64,000 nucleotides of DNA from Rhodococcoides trifolii (GTDB lineage: Bacteria > Actinomycetota > Actinomycetes > Mycobacteriales > Mycobacteriaceae): assembly GCF_014635345.1 (NCBI RefSeq), contig NZ_BMCU01000002.1, positions 62,001 to 126,000 of the forward strand. The letters are read 5' to 3'. This document shows positions 6,441 through 16,998 of the stretch, piece after piece (position 1 is the stretch's first letter; each line of letters begins with the position of its first letter). The notes under the pieces are model-generated. The model was not told the origin of the DNA. It was given only the letters and a program-made list of their open reading frames with translations, and made no database searches. A program made the translations under genes and the position numbers.

Positions 6441-6731
6441 TCAGCTCCCGTTCACGTCGATGCCGACGCGTAATTCGTGCGGCGGCCGGAACAAATACCA
6501 CGGGTTGTCGGGTGCGCAATCGATCAGAATGATGTTCCCGTCGGCTCGCTCCGCTGTCACAGCCTGTCGACACGGTGACGGGGCGAAGATCCCTGCTTCG
6601 GTGCTCTCGTAGTACAGCGGCCCGATGTAAGTGGGTGCAGCCGAGGCAGTTCCGGCACTGGCCAACGCGATACCGGCGGCGCCGGCTGCGGAGACGAGGG
6701 CAACGGCGGCGACGCGTTTCAGTGAGTGCAT
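6441..6731 (-). CDS. small secreted protein, third of three tandem paralogs
   Basis: 96 aa. A clear Sec signal peptide (MHSLKRVAAVALVSAAGAAG, cleavage after ASA near residue 32) precedes about 64 mature residues. The mature part shares with its two upstream paralogs an IGPLYYES-like block, a PC...NIILIDC block with two cysteines that could form a disulfide, and a short C-terminal beta-like stretch. Family not recognised. It starts 3 bp after the stop of the preceding paralog. This copy is the most divergent, with a proline/tryptophan-rich insertion (NPWYLFRPPHE). Confidence 0.75.
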   Translation of the reverse strand: MHSLKRVAAVALVSAAGAAGIALASAGTASAAPTYIGPLYYESTEAGIFAPSPCRQAVTAERADGNIILIDCAPDNPWYLFRPPHELRVGIDVNGS

Positions 6732-6734
6732 GGC

Positions 6735-7034
6735 TCAGCTCCCCAAGCTCACGTTGATACCGATCAGGTCGACTGTGTCAGTCCCGAAGATGATCGGGCG
6801 AGACACGCAGTTGACCAGAATGATGTCGCCACGAGCGCGGTTGGCGGCCGCACGTTCGGAGCAGGGGACGGCGTCGGGGTCGATGGAAAGCGTGGAGAAA
6901 CTCTCGAAATAGATGGGCCCGCCCTTCGACGGTTCCCCGGCTGCGGAGGCGGTGCCGGCCCCGGCCAGTGCAATTCCGGCGGCGCCGGCTGCGGAGACGA
7001 GGGCAACGGCGGCGGCGCGTTTCAGTGAGTGCAT
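6735..7034 (-). CDS. small secreted protein, second of three tandem paralogs
   Basis: 99 aa with a signal peptide almost identical to that of the next gene (MHSLKRAAAVALVSAAGAAG). The mature domain contains GGPIYFES, PCSERAAANRARGDIILVNC and ends INVSLGS. The last codons supply the GGGGAGC ribosome site of the following gene, and TGA-GCC-ATG separates them, so the pair is translationally coupled. Two cysteines are conserved with the paralogs. No function assigned. Confidence 0.78.
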   Translation of the reverse strand: MHSLKRAAAVALVSAAGAAGIALAGAGTASAAGEPSKGGPIYFESFSTLSIDPDAVPCSERAAANRARGDIILVNCVSRPIIFGTDTVDLIGINVSLGS

Positions 7035-7037
7035 GGC

Positions 7038-7334
7038 TCAGCTCCCCAAGCTCACGTTGATACCGATCAGATTCTTGTTGCTGTCGAAACCGAATCCGAT
7101 TGTTTTGCAGTCAAGAAGAATGATATCGCCGCGTGCGCGATTCGCTGCTGCGCGATCTGCGCACGAGACGGCGTCTGGGTCGAAGCTTATGCCGAAACTC
7201 TCGTAATAGATGGGCCCGCCCTTCGACGGTTCCACGGCTGCGGAGGCGGTGCCGGCCCCGGCGAGCGCAACTCCGACGACGGAGGCCGCGATGATGGTGG
7301 CGGATGCTGCTGCATTACGGATCGTGCGTGTCAT
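7038..7334 (-). CDS. small secreted protein, first of three tandem paralogs
   Basis: 98 aa. It has a distinct signal peptide (MTRTIRNAAASATIIAASVVG) but the same mature architecture: GGPIYYES, SCADRAAANRARGDIILLDC, and INVSLGS at the end. It is the first gene of the three-gene unit with GGGAG before its ATG. It ends with the same CTTGGGGAGCTGA/ATG junction as its neighbour, showing that the array arose by tandem duplication. Role unknown; extracellular or periplasmic location is inferred from the signal peptide. Confidence 0.78.
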   Translation of the reverse strand: MTRTIRNAAASATIIAASVVGVALAGAGTASAAVEPSKGGPIYYESFGISFDPDAVSCADRAAANRARGDIILLDCKTIGFGFDSNKNLIGINVSLGS

Positions 7335-7538: not shown

Positions 7539-7561
7539 TGGTGCCCCCGGCAGGATTCGAA
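7539..7561. other. attL core
   Basis: 23 bp starting TGGTGCCCCCGG and ending GATTCGAA, identical to the 3' part of tRNA-Arg at 16923-16945. Identity stops at the base before (G versus A) and at the base after (A versus C). Confidence 0.9.
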
Positions 7562-7735
7562 AATGCCGACACCAACACTGTTTGTGCTGGTAGACGCGAC
7601 TCTAGCTGCAGGTACAGCCGATAGTGAGTCTGCAGAAGTATGCTCGAACCTGCAGGACTCAGCACTCTTATTGCTCGGTCAGTTGCCGGGTCGGCAGCGT
7701 CTGTATCAGGCTATGTACCAGCAGGAGGAACCGTC

Positions 7736-8935
7736 ATGGCCAGCGACAAGCCCCGTGCCCGCCGACAGTGGGGTCGGATCTACAAGCTGAAGCCGAGCGG
7801 TCGGTACAGAGCCTCGTACACCCACAACGGCAAGCTCTACCACCCGCCGAAAGGCACTCCCGGTACCGGAACGAGCAGAACCGCGACGTTTCAACACAAG
7901 GGCCGCGCCGAGGGTTGGTTGGATTCGGTCAAAGCTCAGATCGACGCCGGTACGTGGCAAGACCCGGCCGAGGTGATCGAGCAGGCCGACCGGAAAGTGG
8001 CCAGCAGCGTGACCGTGACCGAGTACGCCCGGAAACGAGTCGCTGAGCGCACGCTGACTCCCCGGACGCGCAAAGGGTACGAGGAGCTGATCGAACGGAC
8101 AATCGCCGAGTCGAGTATCGGTGCGCTGCCACTCTCAGCGCTGAGCGTGACCGCCGTCCGTAGTTGGTACGCCGCGCTGGACTCGAGCCGACCGACGCGC
8201 CGCGCTCATGCCTACGGACTCCTGCACTCGGTTCTCCGGGACGCCGTGGACGAGCAACTGATCGAGACGAACCCGGCAGTCGAGCGAAAGGCTATGAACG
8301 CCAGACGAGTTCGTAAGATTCGCGCTCTGACAGCGCCTCAGTTGACCGCGCTCATCAATGCGACCGCCGAGGAGCTGAGAGCCGCCGTTGCCGTCGCGGG
8401 TTGGTGCGGACTTCGAGCCGGGGAGCTGAAAGGGTTGCGCCGCAGAGACATTGCCGCCGACGCGTCGGTGATCCACGTAGAGCGGGCTGTGACGTACCGC
8501 AGTGGTGTGTACTACGTCGGCGCTCCCAAGACAGAGGCCGGTGTCCGTGACGTGTCGGTGCCGAGCCGTATCCGTGCCGGGTTGCTGGCCCACATTGCCA
8601 CGCTGGCAGACCCACGGCCCGACGCGCTTGTGTTCCCGGGCGCGGGCGGTCCCGAGGGCTATCAGACGGACTGGGAGCTGAGACGCGCTGTCGGTGCCGC
8701 TGGGAAGCTGATCGACCCGGCCCTGTTCCCGGACGGCGTCAATCCGTACGTGGCGCAGGATCTCAGGCCGCACGAACTACGCCACAGCGCCGCGACTCTG
8801 GCAGCCCAAACCGGCGCTACGACGAAGGAACTCATGAGCCGGATCGGTCACACGACACCAAACCAGGCCCTCCAGTACCAGCACGCCGCCGCCGCCCGTG
8901 ACGCCGAGATCGCCGACAAGCTCGACCGAATGTGA
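7736..8935 (+). CDS. int: tyrosine-type site-specific integrase
   Basis: 399 aa from ATG 7736, chosen because AGGAGGA lies 7 bp upstream; the frame is open further upstream without a ribosome site. An N-terminal arm-binding part and a SAM-like core-binding part (about residues 70-180) precede the catalytic domain. Catalytic residues visible: Arg in GWCGLRAGELKGL, HELRHSAATL, and GHTTPNQALQYQHA with the His and the Tyr nucleophile. It lies 175 bp inside attL and reads into the element. It should recombine the 23-bp core in the tRNA-Arg gene. Confidence 0.95.
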   Translation: MASDKPRARRQWGRIYKLKPSGRYRASYTHNGKLYHPPKGTPGTGTSRTATFQHKGRAEGWLDSVKAQIDAGTWQDPAEVIEQADRKVASSVTVTEYARKRVAERTLTPRTRKGYEELIERTIAESSIGALPLSALSVTAVRSWYAALDSSRPTRRAHAYGLLHSVLRDAVDEQLIETNPAVERKAMNARRVRKIRALTAPQLTALINATAEELRAAVAVAGWCGLRAGELKGLRRRDIAADASVIHVERAVTYRSGVYYVGAPKTEAGVRDVSVPSRIRAGLLAHIATLADPRPDALVFPGAGGPEGYQTDWELRRAVGAAGKLIDPALFPDGVNPYVAQDLRPHELRHSAATLAAQTGATTKELMSRIGHTTPNQALQYQHAAAARDAEIADKLDRM

Positions 8936-9030
8936 ACTGAGGAATATTCCGCAGTTGAATTCGTCGCCGTATTGCTGCCTGTGGATCGCGCTCTCAAATG
9001 TCGGTAACGAACGTATAACGCACTCCGGGT

Positions 9031-9084
9031 ACCACCTGGCCTTCTAGTTTTCGTCTGAATGGCGTTTACCAAACCACCTGGCCT
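9031..9084. repeat. 12-bp direct repeat between int and the excisionase gene
   Basis: ACCACCTGGCCT occurs at 9031-9042 and 9073-9084, 42 bp apart, in a 271-bp stretch without a convincing gene. It may be an operator pair for the rightward genes. Confidence 0.5.
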
Positions 9085-9206
9085 AATGCTTTGGGCACGT
9101 GCAGATCCCAGAATCTCGGAGTAGCTTCTAGCAGGTACGAGCCGGTCCGGTCATCCTCGCAATTCAGCGTCGCACGTGACCCCCGGCATTCACGAACGGC
9201 AAACCC

Positions 9207-9365
9207 ATGGCAACATTTCTCACCGTCGCTCAGGTGGCGGAAAACCTGCAGATCCACGAGGACACGATCCGGCGCGCAATTGCGTTGGGAGACTTGGCAG
9301 TGTCCCGCGTCGGCCGCGCAATTCGGATCAAGCCCGAGAACGTAGACCGTTGGATCGGTGCCTGA
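9207..9365 (+). CDS. excisionase-like MerR/helix-turn-helix protein
   Basis: 52 aa (MATFLTVAQVAENLQIHEDT..., ending NVDRWIGA). The whole protein is one winged HTH of the excisionase/AlpA type: T-VAQVAE-L-I-EDTIRRAI followed by a VGRAIRI wing. Such proteins bind attachment-site arms and direct excision, and often also repress the integrase promoter. The next gene starts 2 bp after its stop. Short, but the motif match is good. Confidence 0.82.
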   Translation: MATFLTVAQVAENLQIHEDTIRRAIALGDLAVSRVGRAIRIKPENVDRWIGA

Positions 9366-9367
9366 CC

Positions 9368-9532
9368 GTGCTCTCTCAGGGGCAAGTGAACGGCACTCGA
9401 TACCCCGATGAAGCGCCGCCGATATTCGATCCGGAATTGGCCGAGCTGAACGACGACGACGAGGACGACAAAAACTTGCCGCCGGTAGTTCGCCGCATGC
9501 TGGCGCGCACACGAAGGGCGGCTCAGACATGA
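9368..9532 (+). CDS. small acidic/basic hypothetical protein
   Basis: 54 aa from GTG 9368, 2 bp after the excisionase stop. The centre is acidic (ELNDDDEDDKN) and the C-terminus basic (RRMLARTRRAAQT). Its TGA overlaps the ATG of the next gene (ATGA at 9529-9532), which supports real translation within an operon. No family recognised. Confidence 0.6.
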   Translation: MLSQGQVNGTRYPDEAPPIFDPELAELNDDDEDDKNLPPVVRRMLARTRRAAQT

Positions 9533-10329
9533 GTTTCGGAACAAACCTCGAAGCGGAATTCTTCGACCGGAATCTGACACTCTTCGAAACGCCCGAGGGT
9601 GTCGGGGCCGCGCTGGTATTGCTCGAATTGCGGACCTGGAGCGCGAAAGCGAGAACCGACGGCCGTATTCCGAAAATTGCGCTGCGGACAATTCTCTCGC
9701 ACGACGATCCGCGCTCTGCTGTCGCCATTCTGGTCGACCACGGACTCGCGGTTGCCGACGACGACGGCTGGACCATCGACTGGGCACCCGAGCAGAAGAC
9801 GGCCGACCAACGTGAGCGCGGCCTCGAATCCGGCAGGCAGAAAGCAGCTCACGGGCGCGGGGATCATTCGATGTGTCCTGACACGTGGAAGTGCAGGTCA
9901 AGCACAGTCACCGGTGACGGTCACAAGTCGGCCGTAACCAGTGACGGTCACTCCGTTAGGAAGGGTAGGAAGGCCTTAACTAAAGAAGGCCGTACTACTA
10001 CCCCGGCTTCGCCGTCGGGCCTCGCCGAGGGCTCGTCCTCCGTCTCGCCGGAAAACCGGGATGACGGGGGAGACAGCGCCACCAACCCCAACGACGAAAG
10101 CGATGAGTATTTCGGATTCAGTGAGAACGAATGGAACGCGCTCACAGACGACGAGAAACAAGATGTCCGAGAGAACGAAGACGATTACGACTACGGATAC
10201 TTGAACCGAGAGAACCGCGCTCTATACAAGCAACTCATGGACAAGGACCGTCGGTCGGACGACGAAGAAAAAGAACTCGCACAGCTCGAACAATTCAAGG
10301 CTCCCGAGCCTATTTCCTACATCTTCTGA
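9529..10329 (+). CDS. putative replication initiator of the element
   Basis: 266 aa. Residues about 15-90 look like a winged helix (GVGAALVLLELRTWSAKARTDG, then a DDPRSAVAILVDHGLAVAD recognition region). A linker full of VTGDGH/VTSDGH repeats and basic residues follows, then a very acidic C-terminal third ending YIF. The position after the excisionase and the palindrome cluster inside the gene (9907-9951) fit a Rep-type protein with its origin in the coding sequence, as in many phages and satellites. Function is inference; no catalytic motif is visible. Confidence 0.5.
   Translation: MSFGTNLEAEFFDRNLTLFETPEGVGAALVLLELRTWSAKARTDGRIPKIALRTILSHDDPRSAVAILVDHGLAVADDDGWTIDWAPEQKTADQRERGLESGRQKAAHGRGDHSMCPDTWKCRSSTVTGDGHKSAVTSDGHSVRKGRKALTKEGRTTTPASPSGLAEGSSSVSPENRDDGGDSATNPNDESDEYFGFSENEWNALTDDEKQDVRENEDDYDYGYLNRENRALYKQLMDKDRRSDDEEKELAQLEQFKAPEPISYIF
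9907..9951. other. candidate replication origin: palindrome/iteron cluster
   Basis: GTCACCGGTGAC (9907-9918, perfect palindrome) overlaps GTGACGGTCAC (9914-9924), and GTGACGGTCAC recurs at 9941-9951, 27 bp further on. An AT-rich, purine-biased run with TTAACTAAAGAAGG follows at about 9955-9995. This is typical of an origin embedded in a rep gene. Confidence 0.45.
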
Positions 10330-10342
10330 AAGGTGAAATACC

Positions 10343-10816
10343 GTGAACACACTCGATGATCTACAGCTAGAACTCCGGCAACCGGATAAGAAATCGGGAC
10401 AGACGTTGAAAGGAAAACCGGACGCAGAGTTTCGCGAATACATTTCGACGGGAATCTACGCAGCGTGGAAGACGCCGGACACGTCGGGAGAGCGTGCAGG
10501 ATCACCACTGAGCAGGCAAGCGCTCCTGTCGTACATCTTCCGTGAGATCTGCGCTGAGATCGGTGCCAACTACCCGCCCGGACTGTTTCCGTATCCCTCG
10601 ATGGCGGTTGCCGTGGGAGCAGCGCCGGGATTTCGACCGGGATCGGACCTCAAATACTTCGATCCGGACGACTCTCGCAGAGTGTCCGAGATCATCGCCC
10701 GAGCCAAAGACGCTGTGCAGCAATGGCTATCGCAGGTACAGGAGCAAGGCAGCGCTGACATCGTGCCGCCCCCACTGCCTCCGATAGCGAAGGTCGTTCA
10801 GCCGTGGAAGAACTGA
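10343..10816 (+). CDS. hypothetical element protein
   Basis: 157 aa, GTG start behind AAAGGTGA, 13 bp after the putative initiator. Soluble, with conserved-looking PDAEFREYISTGIYAAWKTPD and a proline-rich end (VPPPLPPIAKVVQPWKN). No domain recognised. It is the last rightward gene before the bidirectional terminator at 10926. The acidic start (LDDLQLELRQPDKK) could be an interaction segment for the replication protein, but this is speculative. Confidence 0.65.
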   Translation: MNTLDDLQLELRQPDKKSGQTLKGKPDAEFREYISTGIYAAWKTPDTSGERAGSPLSRQALLSYIFREICAEIGANYPPGLFPYPSMAVAVGAAPGFRPGSDLKYFDPDDSRRVSEIIARAKDAVQQWLSQVQEQGSADIVPPPLPPIAKVVQPWKN

Positions 10817-10925
10817 TACGGGTTGTTTTGCGCCAAAGATGACGAACCGCACGCCGATTCCGCCCGCCCAGCGTCCACGCACAGCGACCTGGACGCCCAA
10901 GTTGTCTAGGAATGCCCGGACACAC

Positions 10926-10960
10926 GAAAACGGCCCCCAGAATCAACTGAGGGCCGTTTC
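10926..10960. terminator. bidirectional terminator
   Basis: GAAAACGGCCC pairs with GGGCCGTTTC (10951-10960); both strands end in runs of T. It separates the rightward gene ending at 10816 from the leftward mini-gene ending at 10977. Confidence 0.75.
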
Positions 10961-10976
10961 GAGTGTGCTGGTCGAG

Positions 10977-11099
10977 CTAGACCCGTGAGATGACCGAGTA
11001 CGCGATACCGGTCCGGGGATTGACCCCTGTGACCTGACCTGGATCGAAGTACTGAATCGAGACCGAGTTGGTGGGTCGTTCGAGGGTTGGTGCGGACAT
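10977..11099 (-). CDS. 40-aa mini-protein on the opposite strand
   Basis: Starts at ATG 11099 with an excellent GGAGG 7-8 bp upstream (TTGGAGGTAGGCACATG). It begins MSAPTLERPTNS and ends AYSVISRV, with a YFDPGQVTGVNPRTG core. It has its own terminator at 10926. Oppositely oriented and well expressed by signal, it could be a small regulator or modulator of the element. No family recognised. Confidence 0.6.
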   Translation of the reverse strand: MSAPTLERPTNSVSIQYFDPGQVTGVNPRTGIAYSVISRV

Positions 11100-11187
11100 G
11101 TGCCTACCTCCAAGTGAGACGTTGCCGACCCCCGAGAGTCTACCCCAAAAAGCCACATTTGCACGCAACACAGAGAGCTCAAAAATC

Positions 11188-11532
11188 ATGACACAGAACA
11201 GATTCAGAGAAGCGCTACAGACCGCGCTGACCGACGACGGCAGTGTGATCGACGCGCTGAGGACACAGCTACCGGACCTGATCGCCGCCGAGCTTGTCGA
11301 CCTCGAACGCGAACGCCTGAGGCAGGAACGCCGCCCGCTCGACGACGTGCGAGACATCGTGGCAACGGCCGGACCCGAGGGGATGTCGATGGCCGAATTC
11401 ACCCGAATCATGCGCGGGGACTTGGGCCTGTCCCAGAGCGGGGCCAAGCGCCGGATGATCGAAGCGCATGAGCGCGGACTGATCGCCGCGAAAGACCCGA
11501 CCGCAGCTCGTCGACGCTGGATCGCTGCGTAA
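11188..11532 (+). CDS. hypothetical element protein, helical with HTH-like C-terminus
   Basis: 114 aa. The N-terminal half is helical and charged (RFREALQTAL, ELVDLERERLRQERRP). The C-terminal half (EGMSMAEFTRIMRGDLGLSQSGAKRRMIEAHERGLIAAKD) reads like a winged or KfrA-like DNA-binding helix pair. It is followed after 4 bp by another winged-helix gene. A role in control or in small-terminase-like DNA recognition is possible, but no family match is certain. Confidence 0.6.
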   Translation: MTQNRFREALQTALTDDGSVIDALRTQLPDLIAAELVDLERERLRQERRPLDDVRDIVATAGPEGMSMAEFTRIMRGDLGLSQSGAKRRMIEAHERGLIAAKDPTAARRRWIAA

Positions 11533-11536
11533 AACG

Positions 11537-11800
11537 ATGTTGCACAACGGATATCGTGTACGCAGTGATATCGAGTCTCAGACCCTCGCCTTGCTCGATG
11601 CCCATGGCCCGCTGGCGGTTTCAGTGCTCGTGGGATTGGTTCGGCTACGGCCCAACGTCACGACGAAGCGCGTGGAAACCGTCCTCGCACACCTCGAGAG
11701 TCTGGGCGAAGTCGGCAAGGCCAGCGCGACCGCCGACGGCAAATTCCGATACAGGATCTCCGACCAGATCCGCGACGAGCTGAGAGTAGAGACAAGATGA
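11537..11800 (+). CDS. small winged-helix protein
   Basis: 87 aa, with TLALLDAHGPLAVSVLVGLV, TTKRVETVLAHLESLGEVGK and a wing ending FRYRIS, a compact winged-helix DNA-binding fold. It starts 4 bp after the previous gene and overlaps the next start by ATGA (11797-11800). It could be a transcriptional regulator of the capsid genes downstream; no direct evidence. Confidence 0.6.
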   Translation: MLHNGYRVRSDIESQTLALLDAHGPLAVSVLVGLVRLRPNVTTKRVETVLAHLESLGEVGKASATADGKFRYRISDQIRDELRVETR

Positions 11801-11967
11801 GCAGGGGAACAAAGAAAGCACCCAAGTTCAAAGAGCAGAGATTCTTTCTGGACAAGCAGATCGAATTGGAGAGAGAATTCCTACGGAATAACGCGAGCAG
11901 AGTCGACCGAGGAGAAGAACAAATTTCCTGGGAAGAGTTCAACCGACAGAGAAAAGGATCACAATGA
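11797..11967 (+). CDS. 56-aa basic/helical hypothetical protein
   Basis: MSRGTKKAPKFKEQRFFLDK... through EEFNRQRKGSQ, highly charged and probably one long helix with Lys/Arg at both ends. Both boundaries overlap neighbours by ATGA, so it sits inside a tightly coupled operon. Many AGA/AGG codons and low GC contrast with the chromosome. No known family. Confidence 0.6.
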   Translation: MSRGTKKAPKFKEQRFFLDKQIELEREFLRNNASRVDRGEEQISWEEFNRQRKGSQ

Positions 11968-12236
11968 TTTTCACAGAGAAACTGCGAGAAGTTCTGGAGC
12001 AGAGTCTCGATAGCTTGGACGACGAATCGCGACAGAAGATCGCGGACAATCCGGGTACCAGCGCTCGACAGGTGGGCGACGATGTCGAGTTCTCAGCAGC
12101 CGGAATCGTCTACGCCGTGGTCGACTCCGAATGGCTGGCCGACGACCAACAGGGCATCGCCGACGCGACCTTGCACGTGCTACCAAGCGCTCCTGACGAT
12201 ATTTCCGAGCTGACCGAGGGCGGCGGCACCGACTGA
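11964..12236 (+). CDS. hypothetical element protein
   Basis: 90 aa, acidic, predicted soluble (MIFTEKLREVLEQSLDSLDD..., centre DVEFSAAGIVYAVVDSEWL, ending ELTEGGGTD). Coupled to the upstream gene by ATGA overlap. It is the last gene before a 292-bp gap that precedes the capsid operon. No domain recognised. Confidence 0.6.
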   Translation: MIFTEKLREVLEQSLDSLDDESRQKIADNPGTSARQVGDDVEFSAAGIVYAVVDSEWLADDQQGIADATLHVLPSAPDDISELTEGGGTD

Positions 12237-12528
12237 CGATCTCGACCCCGCAGAATCGAACTCAGCGGCTCCGGGGTACCTACCGCGAAAGGTGCTCCGG
12301 GGTTGCTGTCTCGGGGGTCGGGCGGAACCGCAAAACCTCGAGTAACATTCGAACCAGCAGGTCGCCCCGACCACGCTCATCACGAGCTTGTAGGGAATCG
12401 CCAGCGCCGCAGCAACGCTCACCAGCGAAGAAGCGCCTTGCCGACAAGAGTCACAGGGCCGCAGCGCATATCAAGGGCCGTTCTCGAAGCAGACCGTGTG
12501 ACAAATCCACGTCCTCGAACGGATACCC
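12237..12528. other. non-coding or decayed stretch before the capsid operon
   Basis: 292 bp with no credible start, ribosome site or recognisable protein in any frame. An open rightward frame from 12303 gives an Arg-rich product without a family signature. In related elements a small terminase-like or HNH gene sits here, so it may be a remnant or the promoter region of the capsid genes. Confidence 0.4.
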
Positions 12529-13080
12529 ATGTCCTCCAACATCGTTCATCGCGCAGCACCCGTCGACCTCGAACTCCGGGGATCGGACGGGCGTACCGTC
12601 GTGGGAATTTGTGCCCCGTTCGATCAACCCGCTGACATCGCCGAGCACGGTTTCCGGTTCACCGAGACCATCCGTCGGGGATCGTTCACCAAGACGATTG
12701 CCGAGCGTGGAGACCGCGTCAAATTCCTCGCTCAGCACGACGCCCGCTCGATGCCACTAGGCCGCGCAACGCTTCTCAGGGAAGACGCTGCAGGGCTTTA
12801 CGGTGAGTTCCGGGTGTCGAAGACGCAGGCAGGCGACGAAGTTCTGGAGCTGATCAACGATGGCGCGCTCGATGCGCTGAGCGTCGGAATGCGCGTGATC
12901 GCCGAGACGTGGACCTCGAACCGCAGCGCTCGCAGCATCACAGAGATTGCGCTGGCGGAGGTTTCCGCAGTGAACTTCGGTGCCTACTCCGGGGCCGTCA
13001 TTCTGGGCACACGGTCGCAGTCCGACAACGTCATTTCTCCAGAGCAGGCCGCTCGCCGGCTTCGACTCCTGGACCTCTAA
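12529..13080 (+). CDS. HK97-family prohead protease
   Basis: 183 aa, close to the family's usual 180-200. Residues 10-165 carry the expected order: VVGICAPFDQPADI, FTETIRRGSFTKTI, the catalytic His in FLAQHDARSMPLGR, the catalytic Ser in GALDALSVGM, and EIALAEVSAVNFGAY. The protease cleaves the scaffold-like delta domain of the capsid protein during head maturation. It lies 21 bp before the capsid gene, the standard pairing. Similar to Rv1577c/Rv2651c of phiRv1/phiRv2. Confidence 0.9.
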   Translation: MSSNIVHRAAPVDLELRGSDGRTVVGICAPFDQPADIAEHGFRFTETIRRGSFTKTIAERGDRVKFLAQHDARSMPLGRATLLREDAAGLYGEFRVSKTQAGDEVLELINDGALDALSVGMRVIAETWTSNRSARSITEIALAEVSAVNFGAYSGAVILGTRSQSDNVISPEQAARRLRLLDL

Positions 13081-13101
13081 AACATATCTAGGACAACAAC
13101 T

Positions 13102-14379
13102 ATGAAGATCTCTAAGATGAACCTGGCGGAGCTGAAAAGCTACATCGCCGAAGCTCGCACCGAGGCAACCGAACTGGCAACCCGCAGTGAGGATCTGACC
13201 GGCGAGAGCGCTGACCGATTCGACACGCTCGAGTCCGGACTGAAAGAAGCGACCGCCCGAAAGGCTCAGATCGAAGCACGCGCCGAGTCCGTGAAGAACG
13301 GTTTCGCCGCTGGCAAGGTCGGCTTCGAGGACGGGGCACCCGGTGGTTTCCGCACCGAGGTCCGCGACGAAAAGCCCTCCCTCAAGGGTGCTCTCACTCT
13401 CCGCAGTGACCAGACCCTCACGCAGTGGAACCATGACAACGGCCGCACCGAGCGCGCTGGCATCACGCTCGACCAGATCGTCCGAGGTCTGGCCGTCGGT
13501 TGGAGCGGAGTTCCGGATGAGCAACGTGCTTTGGTCGAATCCACACAGTCGGCCGGTGGAGTCCTGGTACCGACCCCGGTTGCTGCCAGCGTGATCGACG
13601 TGGCGCGCGCTCAGGCTCGAGTGCTGCAGGCGGGCGCAACCATCGTCCCGATGCAGTCGGCCACGAGCAAAATTCCTCGCATCACCAACGAAGGCGCAGC
13701 GCGATTCTATGCCGAGGGTGAACAGCGAGTCCCGCAAGACATCGCGTTCGATGCCGTTACGCTGCAGGCAAAGTCGTTCGAACGCCTGATCCTCGTGAGC
13801 AACGAGCTTCTGGCCGACAGTGACCCGAGCGTCGGCAACGTGATCGAGCAGTCGTTCTCCGCTCAGATCGCGGCCGGTCTCGACCAAGCAGCCCTCTACG
13901 GCACAGGCGCAGGTAGCAACCCGACCGGTATCGCCAACACGGCCGGAGTCCTGCAGGTCGCTCACGGGGCCAACGGAACGGCACTGAGCAACTACGACTG
14001 GCTTATCTCTGCCGAGGGAGTCATCCGGGCGAACAACTGGGAACCGACCGCGCACATCGCGTCCCCGCGCACGGCAACGAACCTGGCTCTGCTGAAAGAC
14101 TCGCAGGGCCGTTACCTGGACGCGCCGAGCACGCTGGCACCGATCCTCACCTCGACCAACATTCCGGTGAACCTCACGACCGGAACCTCGACCACGGCCT
14201 CCCAGATCGTGAGCGGCGACTTCCGGCAGGTGCTCGTAGGTGTCCGATCCGATCTGAAGATCCGAGTGCTGACAGAGCGTTACGCCGACACCGGGCAGAC
14301 GGCATTCCTGGCCACGCTCCGGATCGACGTGCAGCTCGCGCACCCGACAGCGTTCGTGGTCGACAACGGAATTCTGTAG
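13102..14379 (+). CDS. HK97-type major capsid protein
   Basis: 425 aa. Residues 1-100 form a charged, coiled-coil delta/scaffold domain (NLAELKSYIAEARTEATELA, LESGLKEATARKAQIEARAE). The HK97 fold follows, with GGVLVPTPVAASVIDVARAQ, ERLILVSNELLADSD, DQAALYGTGAGSNPTGIANT and the closing FLATLRIDVQLAHPTAFVV. It forms the icosahedral shell after cleavage by the adjacent protease. Full length with no frameshift, so it is likely functional. Equivalent genes are Rv1576c/Rv2650c in phiRv elements. Confidence 0.95.
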   Translation: MKISKMNLAELKSYIAEARTEATELATRSEDLTGESADRFDTLESGLKEATARKAQIEARAESVKNGFAAGKVGFEDGAPGGFRTEVRDEKPSLKGALTLRSDQTLTQWNHDNGRTERAGITLDQIVRGLAVGWSGVPDEQRALVESTQSAGGVLVPTPVAASVIDVARAQARVLQAGATIVPMQSATSKIPRITNEGAARFYAEGEQRVPQDIAFDAVTLQAKSFERLILVSNELLADSDPSVGNVIEQSFSAQIAAGLDQAALYGTGAGSNPTGIANTAGVLQVAHGANGTALSNYDWLISAEGVIRANNWEPTAHIASPRTATNLALLKDSQGRYLDAPSTLAPILTSTNIPVNLTTGTSTTASQIVSGDFRQVLVGVRSDLKIRVLTERYADTGQTAFLATLRIDVQLAHPTAFVVDNGIL

Positions 14380-14385
14380 GCCGTC

Positions 14386-14586
14386 ATGTTCGGAATCAAC
14401 GGTCTCGGAAAGCTTCTCGGCGGGGGCAACTGGCTCGACGCCGAGGTTGCCCGACGACAGGCTCAGTTGGCCGAGATGTCAAGCGGCCGAGGGACACGGG
14501 AAGGCATACCGGTTTCGACCTGGCGCGCTCTCCCGGACAGCCCGACCGCCGACCCGAGCAAGCTGGTTCAGAAATTGCCCGACTGA
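14386..14586 (+). CDS. 66-aa protein following the capsid gene
   Basis: Starts 6 bp after the capsid stop (MFGINGLGKLLGGGNWLDAE), with a Gly-rich hydrophobic start, a helix (VARRQAQLAEM) and a C-terminal region with TWRALPDSP. Its place in phage modules suggests a head-completion or decoration protein, but no family is recognised. Confidence 0.6.
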   Translation: MFGINGLGKLLGGGNWLDAEVARRQAQLAEMSSGRGTREGIPVSTWRALPDSPTADPSKLVQKLPD

Positions 14587-14596
14587 CAACGGGCAC

Positions 14597-14695
14597 ATGA
14601 GTTTCGAGCTGTCAGGTGCTTTCGACGAAATTGCCACCGACGCGACCGCTCGAAGATCCACACGCCTGCCCCTGGCGAGCACCTTGGGTAAGTGA
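14597..14695 (+). CDS. possible 32-aa peptide
   Basis: ATG 10 bp after the previous stop, MSFELSGAFDEIATDATARR to a TGA at 14693-14695. No clear ribosome site and no homology recognised. It may be a short real gene or chance. Confidence 0.25.
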   Translation: MSFELSGAFDEIATDATARRSTRLPLASTLGK

Positions 14696-14775
14696 GGTGG
14701 GCAACCAAAGTCCATGCTGGTGCGCGAACGGAACTCCTGCCCATCGCGCACGACCGCACAGCACGGCACGCAGCT

Positions 14776-14823
14776 AGCACGGTCCGGGGGTTTCCTCGTC
14801 TGGGATGTGACCCGGACCGTGCT
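14776..14823. other. large stem-loop downstream of the capsid operon
   Basis: Perfect 13-bp arms: AGCACGGTCCGGG at 14776-14788 and CCCGGACCGTGCT at 14811-14823, with a 22-nt loop, flanked on both sides by AGCT. It could terminate the capsid operon or be part of a packaging site. Confidence 0.65.
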
Positions 14824-14942
14824 CAGCTCCAACAGTTTCGAACCTTGCTGGCGCCGACCCCCGACCCGGCCGACTCAAGGTTCGATAGGTTCGAAGCAGC
14901 GCCGGGGCTTACCTCCCCCTAGCCGCGCTCGAACCGAACCGC

Positions 14943-15010
14943 GACCGGCCCTCTGTTCATCCTTGTGCGACCCCCGTTGCCCGCATGAGGATTCGAGCAG
15001 GGGGCCGGTC
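14943..15010. other. second large stem-loop just upstream of the HNH gene
   Basis: GACCGGCCCTCTG (14943-14955) pairs with CAGGGGGCCGGTC (14998-15010) with one mismatch. The loop contains a further ATCCT/AGGAT pair, giving a long composite structure 33 bp before the HNH start. With 14776-14823 it fills most of the 348-bp gap. Confidence 0.6.
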
Positions 15011-15043
15011 GTCGTTAATCCGCAACCACTTCGACGAACAGAG

Positions 15044-15550
15044 ATGACGATGGCAAACCACAGCACGTACGCATGGCGCAAGGCAGCACAGGAGTTCAAA
15101 GCCGAGTGCTATCGACAGGGAATCGTGATCTGTCATCTGTGCGGAACAGAGATCCCCGAGAATGCGCCCCGTAATTCCAAAATGGAGTTTTGCGCCGACC
15201 ATTTGATCCCGATGGAATTGCTCGACGACCCAAGCGACACAAGCGCGTTGGCACCCTCCCACAGGGTCTGCAACACCCGTCGTGGACTTGGACCTGTTCG
15301 TCCGATGAGTCCACCACAGCAAGCGCTACCTGCCCCCGTGGTGCCCGCTGCAGCGCCGACAATCGTTGCCCCACAACCCAAGCGCGCCATGGTCAAATCC
15401 TCGATGCTCTGTGTCGACAGCGCTGGCCTTGGTGGTCACCCTCGAATTGCCCAGTGTCGCAACGCACCTGGCCACCACACGCTCGTAGCCTACGTCGCAC
15501 GCGCTGAAGCAGAGCAGAGTCGCATCGCTGTCTACGATCACCAGCGCTGA
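15044..15550 (+). CDS. HNH endonuclease
   Basis: 168 aa from ATG 15044 (a second ATG lies at 15050). The frame is open for 330 bp upstream, but that part crosses two hairpins and has no domain. Zinc/HNH signature: ICHLCGTEIP, then FCADHLIPMELLDD and HRVCNTRRG. The C-terminal part is Pro/Ala-rich (PPQQALPAPVVPAAAP) with a further Cys pair. HNH proteins beside head genes usually assist terminase in cos cleavage; here no terminase is present, so it may act with a helper phage terminase. Confidence 0.85.
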   Translation: MTMANHSTYAWRKAAQEFKAECYRQGIVICHLCGTEIPENAPRNSKMEFCADHLIPMELLDDPSDTSALAPSHRVCNTRRGLGPVRPMSPPQQALPAPVVPAAAPTIVAPQPKRAMVKSSMLCVDSAGLGGHPRIAQCRNAPGHHTLVAYVARAEAEQSRIAVYDHQR

Positions 15551-16314
15551 GACAGGCATGGCAGCAGAGGTAGGCAGCAGCACCTACCTACGTGCCGACT
15601 TGGTGTGAGTGCCTGCCTAGGTGAGCGCGTCGGCCGAGCGTCCCCATACTGCCCTCTGACTGCAACGCTGAGACACGAGAACCGATGCCCTGGCACGCAG
15701 ACCCCGAGCAGATCCGGTGCCGTGGTGCTGACGTGCAAATGCAATTGAGAATCTGAGGACGATGGCCCCGTGACAGTGAGTGCCCCGAGCAGCAGCGTCG
15801 ACCACCTGCCCCGACCGGACCCGCGCACCCCATCACGTCGACCAGATCGGTTTAGCATCGCTTGACCATCGGCTTTACCATCTGTTCGAACGGAGGCCGG
15901 ATCCGAATTCTGCAGTCGCGCAGCATGATCGGACGGCTCGAACGTGGGGGGGGCCATGAAATGCGTTGGCGCAGAGGGGAAGACGACCCCGTCTCGCGCC
16001 CTTTTCCTCTCTCTCTGATCTGAAATTCTGACGATATCTGAGAGAAGCACCCTAGAAACCCCAGGTCAGAGGCTTAAGGCCCAGGTCAGCGAGCCGTCGT
16101 CGAGTTGGTTTCCGGGGTCGAAACCAGTCTCAAAGTAGAATCGACGAAAAGTGATTCCGGATATGCTACAAACGCTGGTACACAAGAGTACTCCCGACCA
16201 GCTCCGACGCGCACGTATCCGTCCCGAATCGACCGGCCGAGCGTTCACCTGGCCCCGAAAGGTAAAGGATCGGCCTCAACTGAGGACAATTCCGCAGTAG
16301 GTCGACCGGGAATC
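15551..16314. other. 764-bp non-coding region with short repeats
   Basis: No convincing gene. Contents: an AGGTAGG/CCTACCT stem-loop (15568-15589) right after the HNH stop; a run of eight G (15946-15953); a pyrimidine-rich tract near 15998-16017; and a 10-bp direct repeat CCCAGGTCAG at 16060 and 16080. It ends at the tail of the leftward mini-operon. Confidence 0.55.
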
Positions 16315-16506
16315 TCAGCGCTGTTCGGCTGTGCTCTTGTCGGTGCCGTAGACACTCGGCGGGCATGGATCGACAGCAAACACGCCGCCGCCCTCGACGT
16401 GAGTGATGGCGCTGCCGTGCTCGCCGCCGACCAGAGTCCCGCCACACTCAGCGCACCGAGCCGGGTTGTGAGTCTTACCGCAGATGTCGCACGTCTTAGT
16501 CGTCAT
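16315..16506 (-). CDS. small zinc-ribbon protein
   Basis: 63 aa with CDICGKTHNPARCAECGG at residues 6-23, two CxxC knuckles typical of a zinc ribbon, then a Gly/His-containing tail. It lies 36 bp downstream of another small leftward gene, forming a two-gene operon at the attR end. It may bind nucleic acid or protein; cargo or regulatory function unknown. Confidence 0.6.
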   Translation of the reverse strand: MTTKTCDICGKTHNPARCAECGGTLVGGEHGSAITHVEGGGVFAVDPCPPSVYGTDKSTAEQR

Positions 16507-16542
16507 CGCCCGATCATGCGCCGATGCGTCCGGCCGTGTGGA

Positions 16543-16710
16543 TTAATCGGGTTCGTCCATCGGAACCCACTTGCCATACTTCTGCTCACGCTGCTCGGGA
16601 GTCAGACGCGCATCCTCCCGCATCCGAGCATTGAATTCGTCGGCGATCCTCTCGTCTTCGAGATCCTGTGCAAGCTGCTTCAGTCGGTCCATCGGTGCCT
16701 GTTCGGTCAT
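16543..16710 (-). CDS. 55-aa charged hypothetical protein
   Basis: Start set at ATG 16710 (MTEQAPMDRLKQLAQDLEDE), because the open frame upstream reads into the tRNA gene and gives the usual tRNA artefact GSNPAGG. The product is helical and acidic, ending KYGKWVPMDEPD. It is first in a leftward operon with the zinc-ribbon gene. No family recognised. Confidence 0.6.
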   Translation of the reverse strand: MTEQAPMDRLKQLAQDLEDERIADEFNARMREDARLTPEQREQKYGKWVPMDEPD

Positions 16711-16756
16711 GTGTTCGATTATTCCAGACAAACCGGTCGTGCCGTTGTACACCAGC

Positions 16757-16823
16757 GGCGCGTGTCGAGACTTCACTGGGGTTGTCATTCGGTCGACTGT
16801 CATTCGAACGACCGACACGCGCC
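16757..16823. repeat. inverted and direct repeats near attR
   Basis: Perfect 11-bp inverted repeat, GGCGCGTGTCG (16757-16767) and CGACACGCGCC (16813-16823), enclosing two direct copies of TGTCATTCG (16783-16791 and 16798-16806). Candidate integrase/excisionase arm sites, or operator of the leftward operon. Confidence 0.6.
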
Positions 16824-16832
16824 GAGCAGACA

Positions 16833-16851
16833 CTACTACGATCGGTAGTAG
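16833..16851. promoter_or_regulatory. CTACTAC-N5-GTAGTAG dyad
   Basis: Perfect 7-bp inverted repeat with GATCG at the centre, between the leftward operon and attR. The half-sites equal those of the dyads at 50051 and 54411, although the spacing is 2 bp shorter. Confidence 0.5.
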
Positions 16852-16922
16852 CCGCTTATTGCCTGTCGGGTGCAACGTCGCTGGCCCGAAACCCGAAAAG
16901 CGTTGCGAGACAACGTAAAACA

Positions 16923-16945
16923 TGGTGCCCCCGGCAGGATTCGAA
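16923..16945. other. attR core inside tRNA-Arg
   Basis: The 23-bp repeat shared with 7539-7561. It covers the encoded CCA, the 3' acceptor strand and part of the T arm, so integration leaves the tRNA intact. Confidence 0.9.
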
Positions 16946-16998
16946 CCTGCGACCAAAGGATTAGAAGGCCTTTGCTCTATCCCCTGAGCTACGGAGGC
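16923..16998 (-). tRNA. tRNA-Arg (anticodon UCU)
   Basis: Acceptor stem GCCTCCG with CGGGGGC, D arm GCTCAGGGGATAGAGC, anticodon loop CTTCTAA (anticodon TCT, decoding AGA), T arm GCAGG-TTCGAAT-CCTGC, and encoded CCA. The last anticodon-stem pair (C31-U39) is not canonical. It decodes AGA, a rare codon in this genome but frequent in the element's small genes. Confidence 0.93.

Follow-up and report, generated by a model that had tools for sequence, protein, structure and literature searches.

Positions 7539–16945 of a 64-kb stretch of the Rhodococcoides trifolii genome (contig NZ_BMCU01000002.1; the whole stretch is called the window below) hold a 9.4-kb element integrated at a tRNA-Arg gene, probably a phage satellite of the phiRv or "candidate PICI" (phage-inducible chromosomal island) kind. 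It has precise boundaries and intact open reading frames (ORFs), and shares with relatives a recurring gene plan, in which the type of integrase has been exchanged, and a conserved non-coding block ahead of the head genes. The satellite reading is supported by the occurrence of the same reduced plan in relatives at several sites and with two integrase types; decay is unlikely because the uninterrupted head genes have been kept over the divergence of the sisters. Judged by its genes, the element would probably spread by borrowing DNA-filling and tail parts from a helper phage. An earlier note, made from the sequence of the window, had called it far smaller than a prophage; a small, intact-looking integrative element is indeed what we find, but it is better read as a phage satellite.

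Boundaries and target site

The element is bounded by a 23-bp exact direct repeat, TGGTGCCCCCGGCAGGATTCGAA, at 7539–7561 and 16923–16945, a spacing of 9,384 bp. Searching the 64-kb window at up to 4 mismatches returned these two copies, both exact (7539 and 16923). The pair is the sole exact direct repeat of at least 18 bp in the window spaced more than 303 bp; the eight others listed are spaced 6–303 bp. Since the right copy forms the 3' terminus of a tRNA-Arg(TCT) gene, the repeat is not a chance one. The tyrosine integrase ORF (7640–8935) adjoins the left copy, at the element end opposite the tRNA. The direct repeat, the 9,384-bp span at tRNA-Arg and the integrase at the left attachment (att) site had all been proposed in the earlier note, and all are confirmed. 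GC content is 0.61 within the element, 0.64 in the left flank and 0.66 in the right flank. In an Rfam search the tRNA alone passed its cut-off. Beside attL, window positions 6441–7334 encode three tandem paralogous small proteins with starts that look by eye like signal peptides.

The genus sample comprised 37 genomes, our own (G000) included, 33 of which had an XdhC match. Four of these 33 matched only at E ~1e-86 to 1e-89 and are probably paralogues. From the remaining 28 genomes besides our own we fetched stretches of 8–18 kb at the site and sought the att core at up to 4 mismatches. The order fatty-acid desaturase gene, tRNA-Arg, XdhC-type gene is common across the genus, and 26 of the 28 relatives have a single core copy at the site. 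Locus L111 has two cores, each one mismatch from the query and 9,325 bp apart, flanking a sister element; the contig of L115 begins within a sister element and holds the right core only. Intergenic DNA left of the site did not align between species at E ≤ 1e-5, and for that reason no base-exact attB was obtained; some single-core loci also differ otherwise in length around the tRNA. The empty sites sought in relatives were thus seen as single cores in the 26 genomes, but not as a base-exact 9,384-bp difference.

Of the 28 relatives (loci L103–L122 and L126–L133), 11 have the target tRNA-Arg and the XdhC-type gene on one strand and 17 have them on opposite strands; accordingly, the window and L111 elements sit on opposite sides of the tRNA. 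At L113 and L126, about 3.2 kb separate tRNA-Arg from the XdhC-type gene, and no second att core is present.

Gene content

The features of the element are listed by window position.

7539–7561, plus strand: attL, left copy of the 23-bp repeat (repeat search)
7736–8935, plus: tyrosine integrase (PF00589, E = 2.5e-11; phrog_1, E = 5e-53)
9207–9365, plus: excisionase-type helix-turn-helix protein, Xis (PF12728; TIGR01764, E = 4e-12; phrog_66)
9368–9532, plus: small acidic protein (ORF whose stop codon overlaps the start of rep; no PHROG or Pfam match)
9529–10329, plus: replication-initiation-type protein (phrog_3926, E = 3e-11; phrog_2447)
10343–10816, plus: orphan protein of 157 aa (no Pfam, PHROG or NCBIfam match)
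10853–10897, no strand: second, shorter conserved non-coding site, less marked than the block at 12354 (29 nt at 93% with L123; 45 nt at 78% with L125)
11188–11532, plus: small protein, perhaps winged-helix by eye (ORF; no credible family match)
11537–11800, plus: small protein, perhaps winged-helix by eye (ORF; no convincing match)
11797–11967, plus: small protein of 56 aa (ORF; no family match)
11964–12236, plus: small protein kept in sisters (42, 38 and 39% to L134, L123 and L124)
12354–12528, no strand: conserved non-coding block that may serve packaging or control (128/165 positions identical with L123; present too in L124 and L111)
12529–13080, plus: HK97-type prohead protease (PF04586, E = 4e-24; TIGR01543)
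13102–14379, plus: HK97-type major capsid protein (MCP) with N-terminal extension (PF05065, E = 6e-41; TIGR01554; phrog_10)
14386–14586, plus: small protein downstream of the capsid gene, kept in sisters (matches in L115, L123 and L125)
14587–15043, no strand: stretch without credited gene, with inverted repeats I4 and I9 (repeat search)
15044–15550, plus: HNH endonuclease-type protein (phrog_338, E = 1e-13; Pfam HNH, E = 0.022, under cut-off)
16315–16506, minus: small zinc-ribbon-like protein (weak; all matches under cut-off)
16543–16710, minus: small protein (ORF; no PHROG or Pfam match)
16923–16945, plus: attR, right copy of the 23-bp repeat and 3' end of the tRNA (repeat and tRNA searches)
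16923–16998, minus: tRNA-Arg (TCT), the target gene, intact (tRNA search, Rfam)

The genes for integrase, Xis, replication initiation, protease, MCP and the HNH-type protein are single uninterrupted ORFs. The earlier note's statement that no gene is frameshifted holds for these recognized genes, and Pfam, PHROG and TIGR family matches agree with it that integration, replication-type and capsid functions have been kept. The integrase frame is open from 7640; its likely start, ATG 7736, was picked by likeness to the integrase of L111, the sister in the same tRNA, to which it is 59% identical. The Xis-like protein also has a weak match to the small-terminase family phrog_57 (E = 0.044), but the excisionase matches are better. 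The replication-initiation-type protein is 48% identical over 126 aa to that of sister L125. In all seven protease sequences aligned, His70 and Ser118 are invariant, presumably as the catalytic pair, and the MCP N-terminal extension we take to be of the delta-domain type.

Other searches returned nothing. The orphan at 10343–10816 had no match at E ≤ 0.01 among 50,697 phage records, and the predicted model of the 11964–12236 protein (pLDDT 70) had no PDB fold match at E ≤ 0.001. PHROG and Pfam also gave nothing for seven further ORFs of 110–528 aa, which overlap credited genes, run opposite to them or lie in stretches that lack them, such as the right-hand one. The PADLOC defense search found no match in 10 proteins, 8 of them from the window, promoter and terminator scans did no better than on shuffles, and a plasmid search gave no match.

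Sister elements

The MCP matched at E ≤ 1e-100 in 6 of the 37 genus genomes (own included) and at 1e-4 to 1e-19 in five more. Its profile found 10 of 401 family genomes at E ≤ 1e-30, and a search of the order found 14 other genomes at E ≤ 1e-20, 12 of which supplied longer stretches (G290 and G190 were left out). The capsid scan took in 16 loci, with no M. tuberculosis record among them. Sister MCPs are 45–53% identical to that of the window (48% for L111). Named relatives are L134 (Rhodococcus sp. AW25M09), L135 (Rhodococcus sp. 14-2470-1b) and L136 (R. yunnanensis); with same-genus relatives so named, the Rhodococcus-type host suggested by the earlier note proves right. Among the phage records the MCP matched 320, all less than 60% identical, the highest among the matches listed being 31.8%.

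The relatives differ in site and integrase. L167, at tRNA-Arg(CCT), and L168, at tRNA-Val, are tyrosine-integrase elements of 10,085 and 7,628 bp, bounded by 25-bp and 30-bp repeats respectively; as in the window element and L111, the integrase lies at the tRNA-distal end. L123, L124 and L125 combine the same protease–MCP pair with large serine-recombinase-type integrases, assigned by phrog_95 in L123 and L125 and by similarity in L124. MCP is found in 10/10 loci of the group and the protease in 8/10.

An MCP tree of 23 rows places the 10 labelled elements on one side of a branch with moderate support (84/92; recovered in 98% of 200 bootstrap trees). The 6 phage rows, and the 5 rows of loci that have large terminase (TerL) and portal, fall outside it. 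A portal-bearing viral contig, L044, falls inside the element group at its base. The MCP of L134, an element at tRNA-Arg whose own integrase lies off its contig, nests beside that of the serine-integrase element L124 (support 100/98), a pairing which suggests that elements have swapped integration and head modules.

Viral contigs L044 and L045 carry related capsid, protease and portal genes; L044 also has a primase, of which L045 has a 44% homolog. They are possibly intermediate between shell-only and capsid-forming satellites. In a relative from another genus (L167:9323–11206), protease and MCP form one 627-aa open frame. At L221 and L223 (G701:C88:379651–380826), the related capsid match is split into two overlapping pieces, so the capsid gene may be broken there.

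Packaging genes

Scanning the window proteins with Pfam, PHROG and NCBIfam, we recognized no terminase, portal, connector, tail or lysis gene. Searched at E ≤ 0.01 with 2 TerL and 3 portal queries, the ten group loci (L134 and L043 being cut by contig ends) gave no match. Eight whole genomes were also searched. The phrog_12 portal matched in G000 only, inside a separate prophage; the phrog_9 terminase matched G000, again in the separate prophage, and G350, at a single place that is not in the element; phrog_2 matched in 8/8 genomes, always outside the elements and strongly only in G350 and G055. A search with portal phrog_104 gave no match even in its controls and is uninformative. TerL and portal homologs are present in loci L139, L169, L172, L185, L187 and L189 of the same order. 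The largest credited gene of the window element without a role encodes 157 aa, compared with 381–514 aa for portals and 478–489 aa for TerLs in the loci compared.

The non-coding block ahead of the head genes

A block of ~175 bp that four elements have in common lies in the gap separating the protease start (12529) from the preceding gene, which ends at 12236. Positions 12354–12523 align with L123 at 79% over 175 columns (133 bits); matches to L111 (76% over 75 columns, 42.8 bits) and L124 (95% over 19, 31.0 bits) are shorter, and five shuffles of each comparison peak at 23–27 bits. Against five other relatives nothing stood clearly above shuffles. Six other intergenic stretches compared with eight relatives reached at most 44.6 bits, a few short matches among them also beating their five shuffles. 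L134 and L125 lack the block, and by eye have a different stretch in common at the same place.

Pairwise identity of the block among the four elements is 0.61–0.78, whereas the protease and MCP genes reach 0.36–0.46 at third codon positions and 0.56–0.72 over all codon positions. The block is thus more conserved than synonymous sites, and the conservation claim rests on those third positions. Two comparisons speak against its being unique: 73 of 150 columns are invariant in the four (0.49), but the best 165-nt coding windows reach 0.48 in protease and 0.47 in MCP (means 0.40 and 0.35), and L123 and L124 are 0.72 identical in the protease gene and 0.70 in the block.

Fold tests do not support a structured RNA in the block: its fold has a z-score of -0.17, with 89 of 200 shuffles folding at least as well, and although 6 of the 34 pairs in the consensus fold of the four sequences show a both-sided change, the covariation term is only -0.5. 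A coding role was rejected on inspection, because 2-nt indels separate the elements; an ORF across the block (12303–12635) had no PHROG or Pfam match.

The 50,697 phage records gave a best E of 0.2 with the block. An exact two-part pattern made from it was found in 0 viral contigs and in 1 of 397 order genomes, its own, in a sample that did not contain G026, G028 and G029, the genomes whose elements carry the block. Searching the genus at E ≤ 10 gave matches in 37/37 genomes, nearly all of them chance; those coinciding with elements were in our own genome, G028 (7e-30) and G026 (1.5e-4), with the G029 element at only E = 0.44. The block could act in packaging, in replication, or as a late promoter or operator. 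We favor packaging or late control, as the candidate lies directly upstream of the head genes.

A resident prophage as helper candidate

The same genome has a compact, low-GC (~0.5) prophage-like region near G000:C3:398600–417200 (~18.6 kb; loci L182 and L183), with serine integrase, TerL, portal, protease, MCP and major tail protein; tape-measure and tail-fiber labels were given by eye. Its TerL is ~28% identical to those of 17–18-kb Microbacterium and Curtobacterium phages (among the matches listed, 15 of 148). Being the sole source of a phrog_12 portal in the genome, it is the first helper candidate, with the caution that co-residence is no proof of helper compatibility (PMC11389934). Packaging-site kinship between the two found no support: the best common word, 15 bp at 30.2 bits, lies within the range of 20 two-base-block shuffles (26.3–34.2 bits).

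Proposed life cycle

In the cycle that we propose, the tyrosine integrase would recombine attP with the tRNA-Arg(TCT) 3' end, keeping the tRNA intact, and would excise the element together with the Xis-like protein. The circle would be copied by the element's own replication-initiation protein. Growth of a helper phage would switch on the head genes, and protease and MCP would build a satellite-coded HK97 shell. The portal, packaging motor and tail would have to come from the helper, since no portal, terminase, connector or tail gene was recognized. The block at 12354–12528 is the best candidate for the site at which the helper's motor, or helper-made regulators, might act.

We tentatively suggest, as a possible though doubtful extension, a shell-only strategy between capsid stealing and capsid forming. 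MCP and protease would be the satellite's own, the helper's portal and terminase would be mounted in that shell, and the block would be the packaging site, its two or more versions (window, L123, L124 and L111; L134 and L125) reflecting two helper types.

Comparison with known systems

The closest published plan is that of phiBN42_1 from M. canettii CIPT 140070010 (PMC3986857), likeness being judged by plan and att core. As described there, phiBN42_1 also targets tRNA-Arg, and its 19-bp att repeat, GTGCCCCCGGCAGGATTCG, falls wholly within the 23-bp repeat of the window (19/19 bases). Its five named genes are integrase, excisionase, 'DNA primase', prohead protease and MCP, with no terminase or portal among those named, and the order integrase, excisionase, replication gene, protease, MCP is as in the window element (for phiBN42_1, by locus-tag numbers). 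Unlike the window element it resides in another host genus and has eight ORFs, in 8.4 kb rather than 9.4 kb. The account also sets phiBN42_1, with protease and MCP, apart from phiBN44_1 and phiMCAN_1, with terminase, portal and MCP (PMC3986857), the same split as found here. The M. tuberculosis elements phiRv1 and phiRv2, similar in size at 9.3 and 10.8 kb (PMC3986857), have a serine and a tyrosine integrase respectively, both types being found also among the sisters of the window element. By the published plan they are alike, but phiRv2 lies at tRNA-Val and phiRv1 not at a tRNA (PMC3986857). The earlier note had taken these two as the closest plan; the phiRv type stands, but phiBN42_1, with the same tRNA type and the 19-bp att core, is closer.

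Candidate PICIs have been described as integrase plus MCP, phiRv1 and phiRv2 included (PMC10654092). Both genes of these Mycobacterium elements are recognized in the window element, which, like the tyrosine-integrase members described, sits in a tRNA gene with attL and attR at its ends (PMC10654092). Capsid-forming PICIs have their own MCP, head protease and HNH protein, as here, but their published definition includes portal, connectors and large and small terminase (PMC10690885), of which portal and large terminase were not found in the window element. With 0/10 group loci matching terminase or portal queries, the element is, by its recognizable genes, not a capsid-forming PICI as defined. 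The Streptomyces phage satellites MulchRoom and MiniFlayer are likewise actinobacterial and have their own capsid genes; unlike the window element they are described with terminases, portal, scaffold and head-to-tail adapter, and with no obvious replicase (PMC10690885).

L139 of Gordonia jacobaea has a related capsid gene, a 26-bp tRNA-Pro repeat, a length of 10,291 bp and an integrase 34% identical to that of the window, but differs in having its own TerL and portal, plus a primase. In the MCP tree L139, L172, L185, L187 and L189 form a separate group (L169 is not in the tree). Only L139 is bounded among the loci with TerL and portal; the others may be satellites or larger prophages.

Alternative explanations

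The element might be a cryptic remnant, a prophage minus its packaging and tail genes that is decaying and kept by chance. No terminase, portal, tail or lysis gene is recognized in it, no mobility of it is known, and small prophage-like elements have been suggested to become stable through decay and gene loss (PMC3986857). We nonetheless regard this as unlikely. The same reduced set recurs in diverged relatives, at several sites and with two integrase types; the named ORFs are full-length, with protease His70 and Ser118 kept in 7/7 sequences; the att repeats are exact, and a non-coding block is conserved above third codon positions. Less probable again is that the shell genes serve interference or a host-side role, such as poisoning of helper heads or formation of a compartment, with the element moving in helper capsids. 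That would fit the keeping of shell genes alone, and satellites are known to redirect capsids (PMC10690885), but the conserved His and Ser of the protease and the N-terminal extension of the MCP suggest real head maturation, and none of the 8 window proteins searched matched a PADLOC defense family. Very improbable, finally, is a full capsid-forming satellite, with portal, connector and terminase diverged beyond recognition: the small genes at 10343–12236 do lack family matches, but the largest credited gene without a role (157 aa) falls well below the portals and TerLs compared, PHROG and Pfam gave nothing for the larger unassigned ORFs (up to 528 aa), and other loci of the order carry recognizable TerL and portal.

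Several points weigh against our preferred reading of a helper-dependent satellite. No excision, induction or particles are on record, and we know of no demonstration that such an MCP–protease pair works with a foreign portal. No helper has been identified, comparison of the resident prophage with the element gave no shared DNA beyond the level of shuffled controls, and no helper-sensing regulator was recognized among the element's proteins. No protease homolog was found in two of the ten group loci (L137 and L168). Nine or more of the small genes lack an assigned role, and consequently a terminase small subunit or connector may be present unrecognized among them.

Significance

Elements of the phiRv type are found in most M. 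tuberculosis strains, and their induction by phage is described as yet to be demonstrated (PMC10654092). Among the matches listed from the open-access literature there was no Rhodococcus member of this satellite kind and no mention of the block; the ~175-bp non-coding block common to four elements, ahead of the protease, is new. The Rhodococcus relatives, with their uninterrupted genes and exact att sites, offer a place to study induction outside a dangerous host. One genome adds a small resident prophage as first helper candidate, and the block provides a concrete site for testing.

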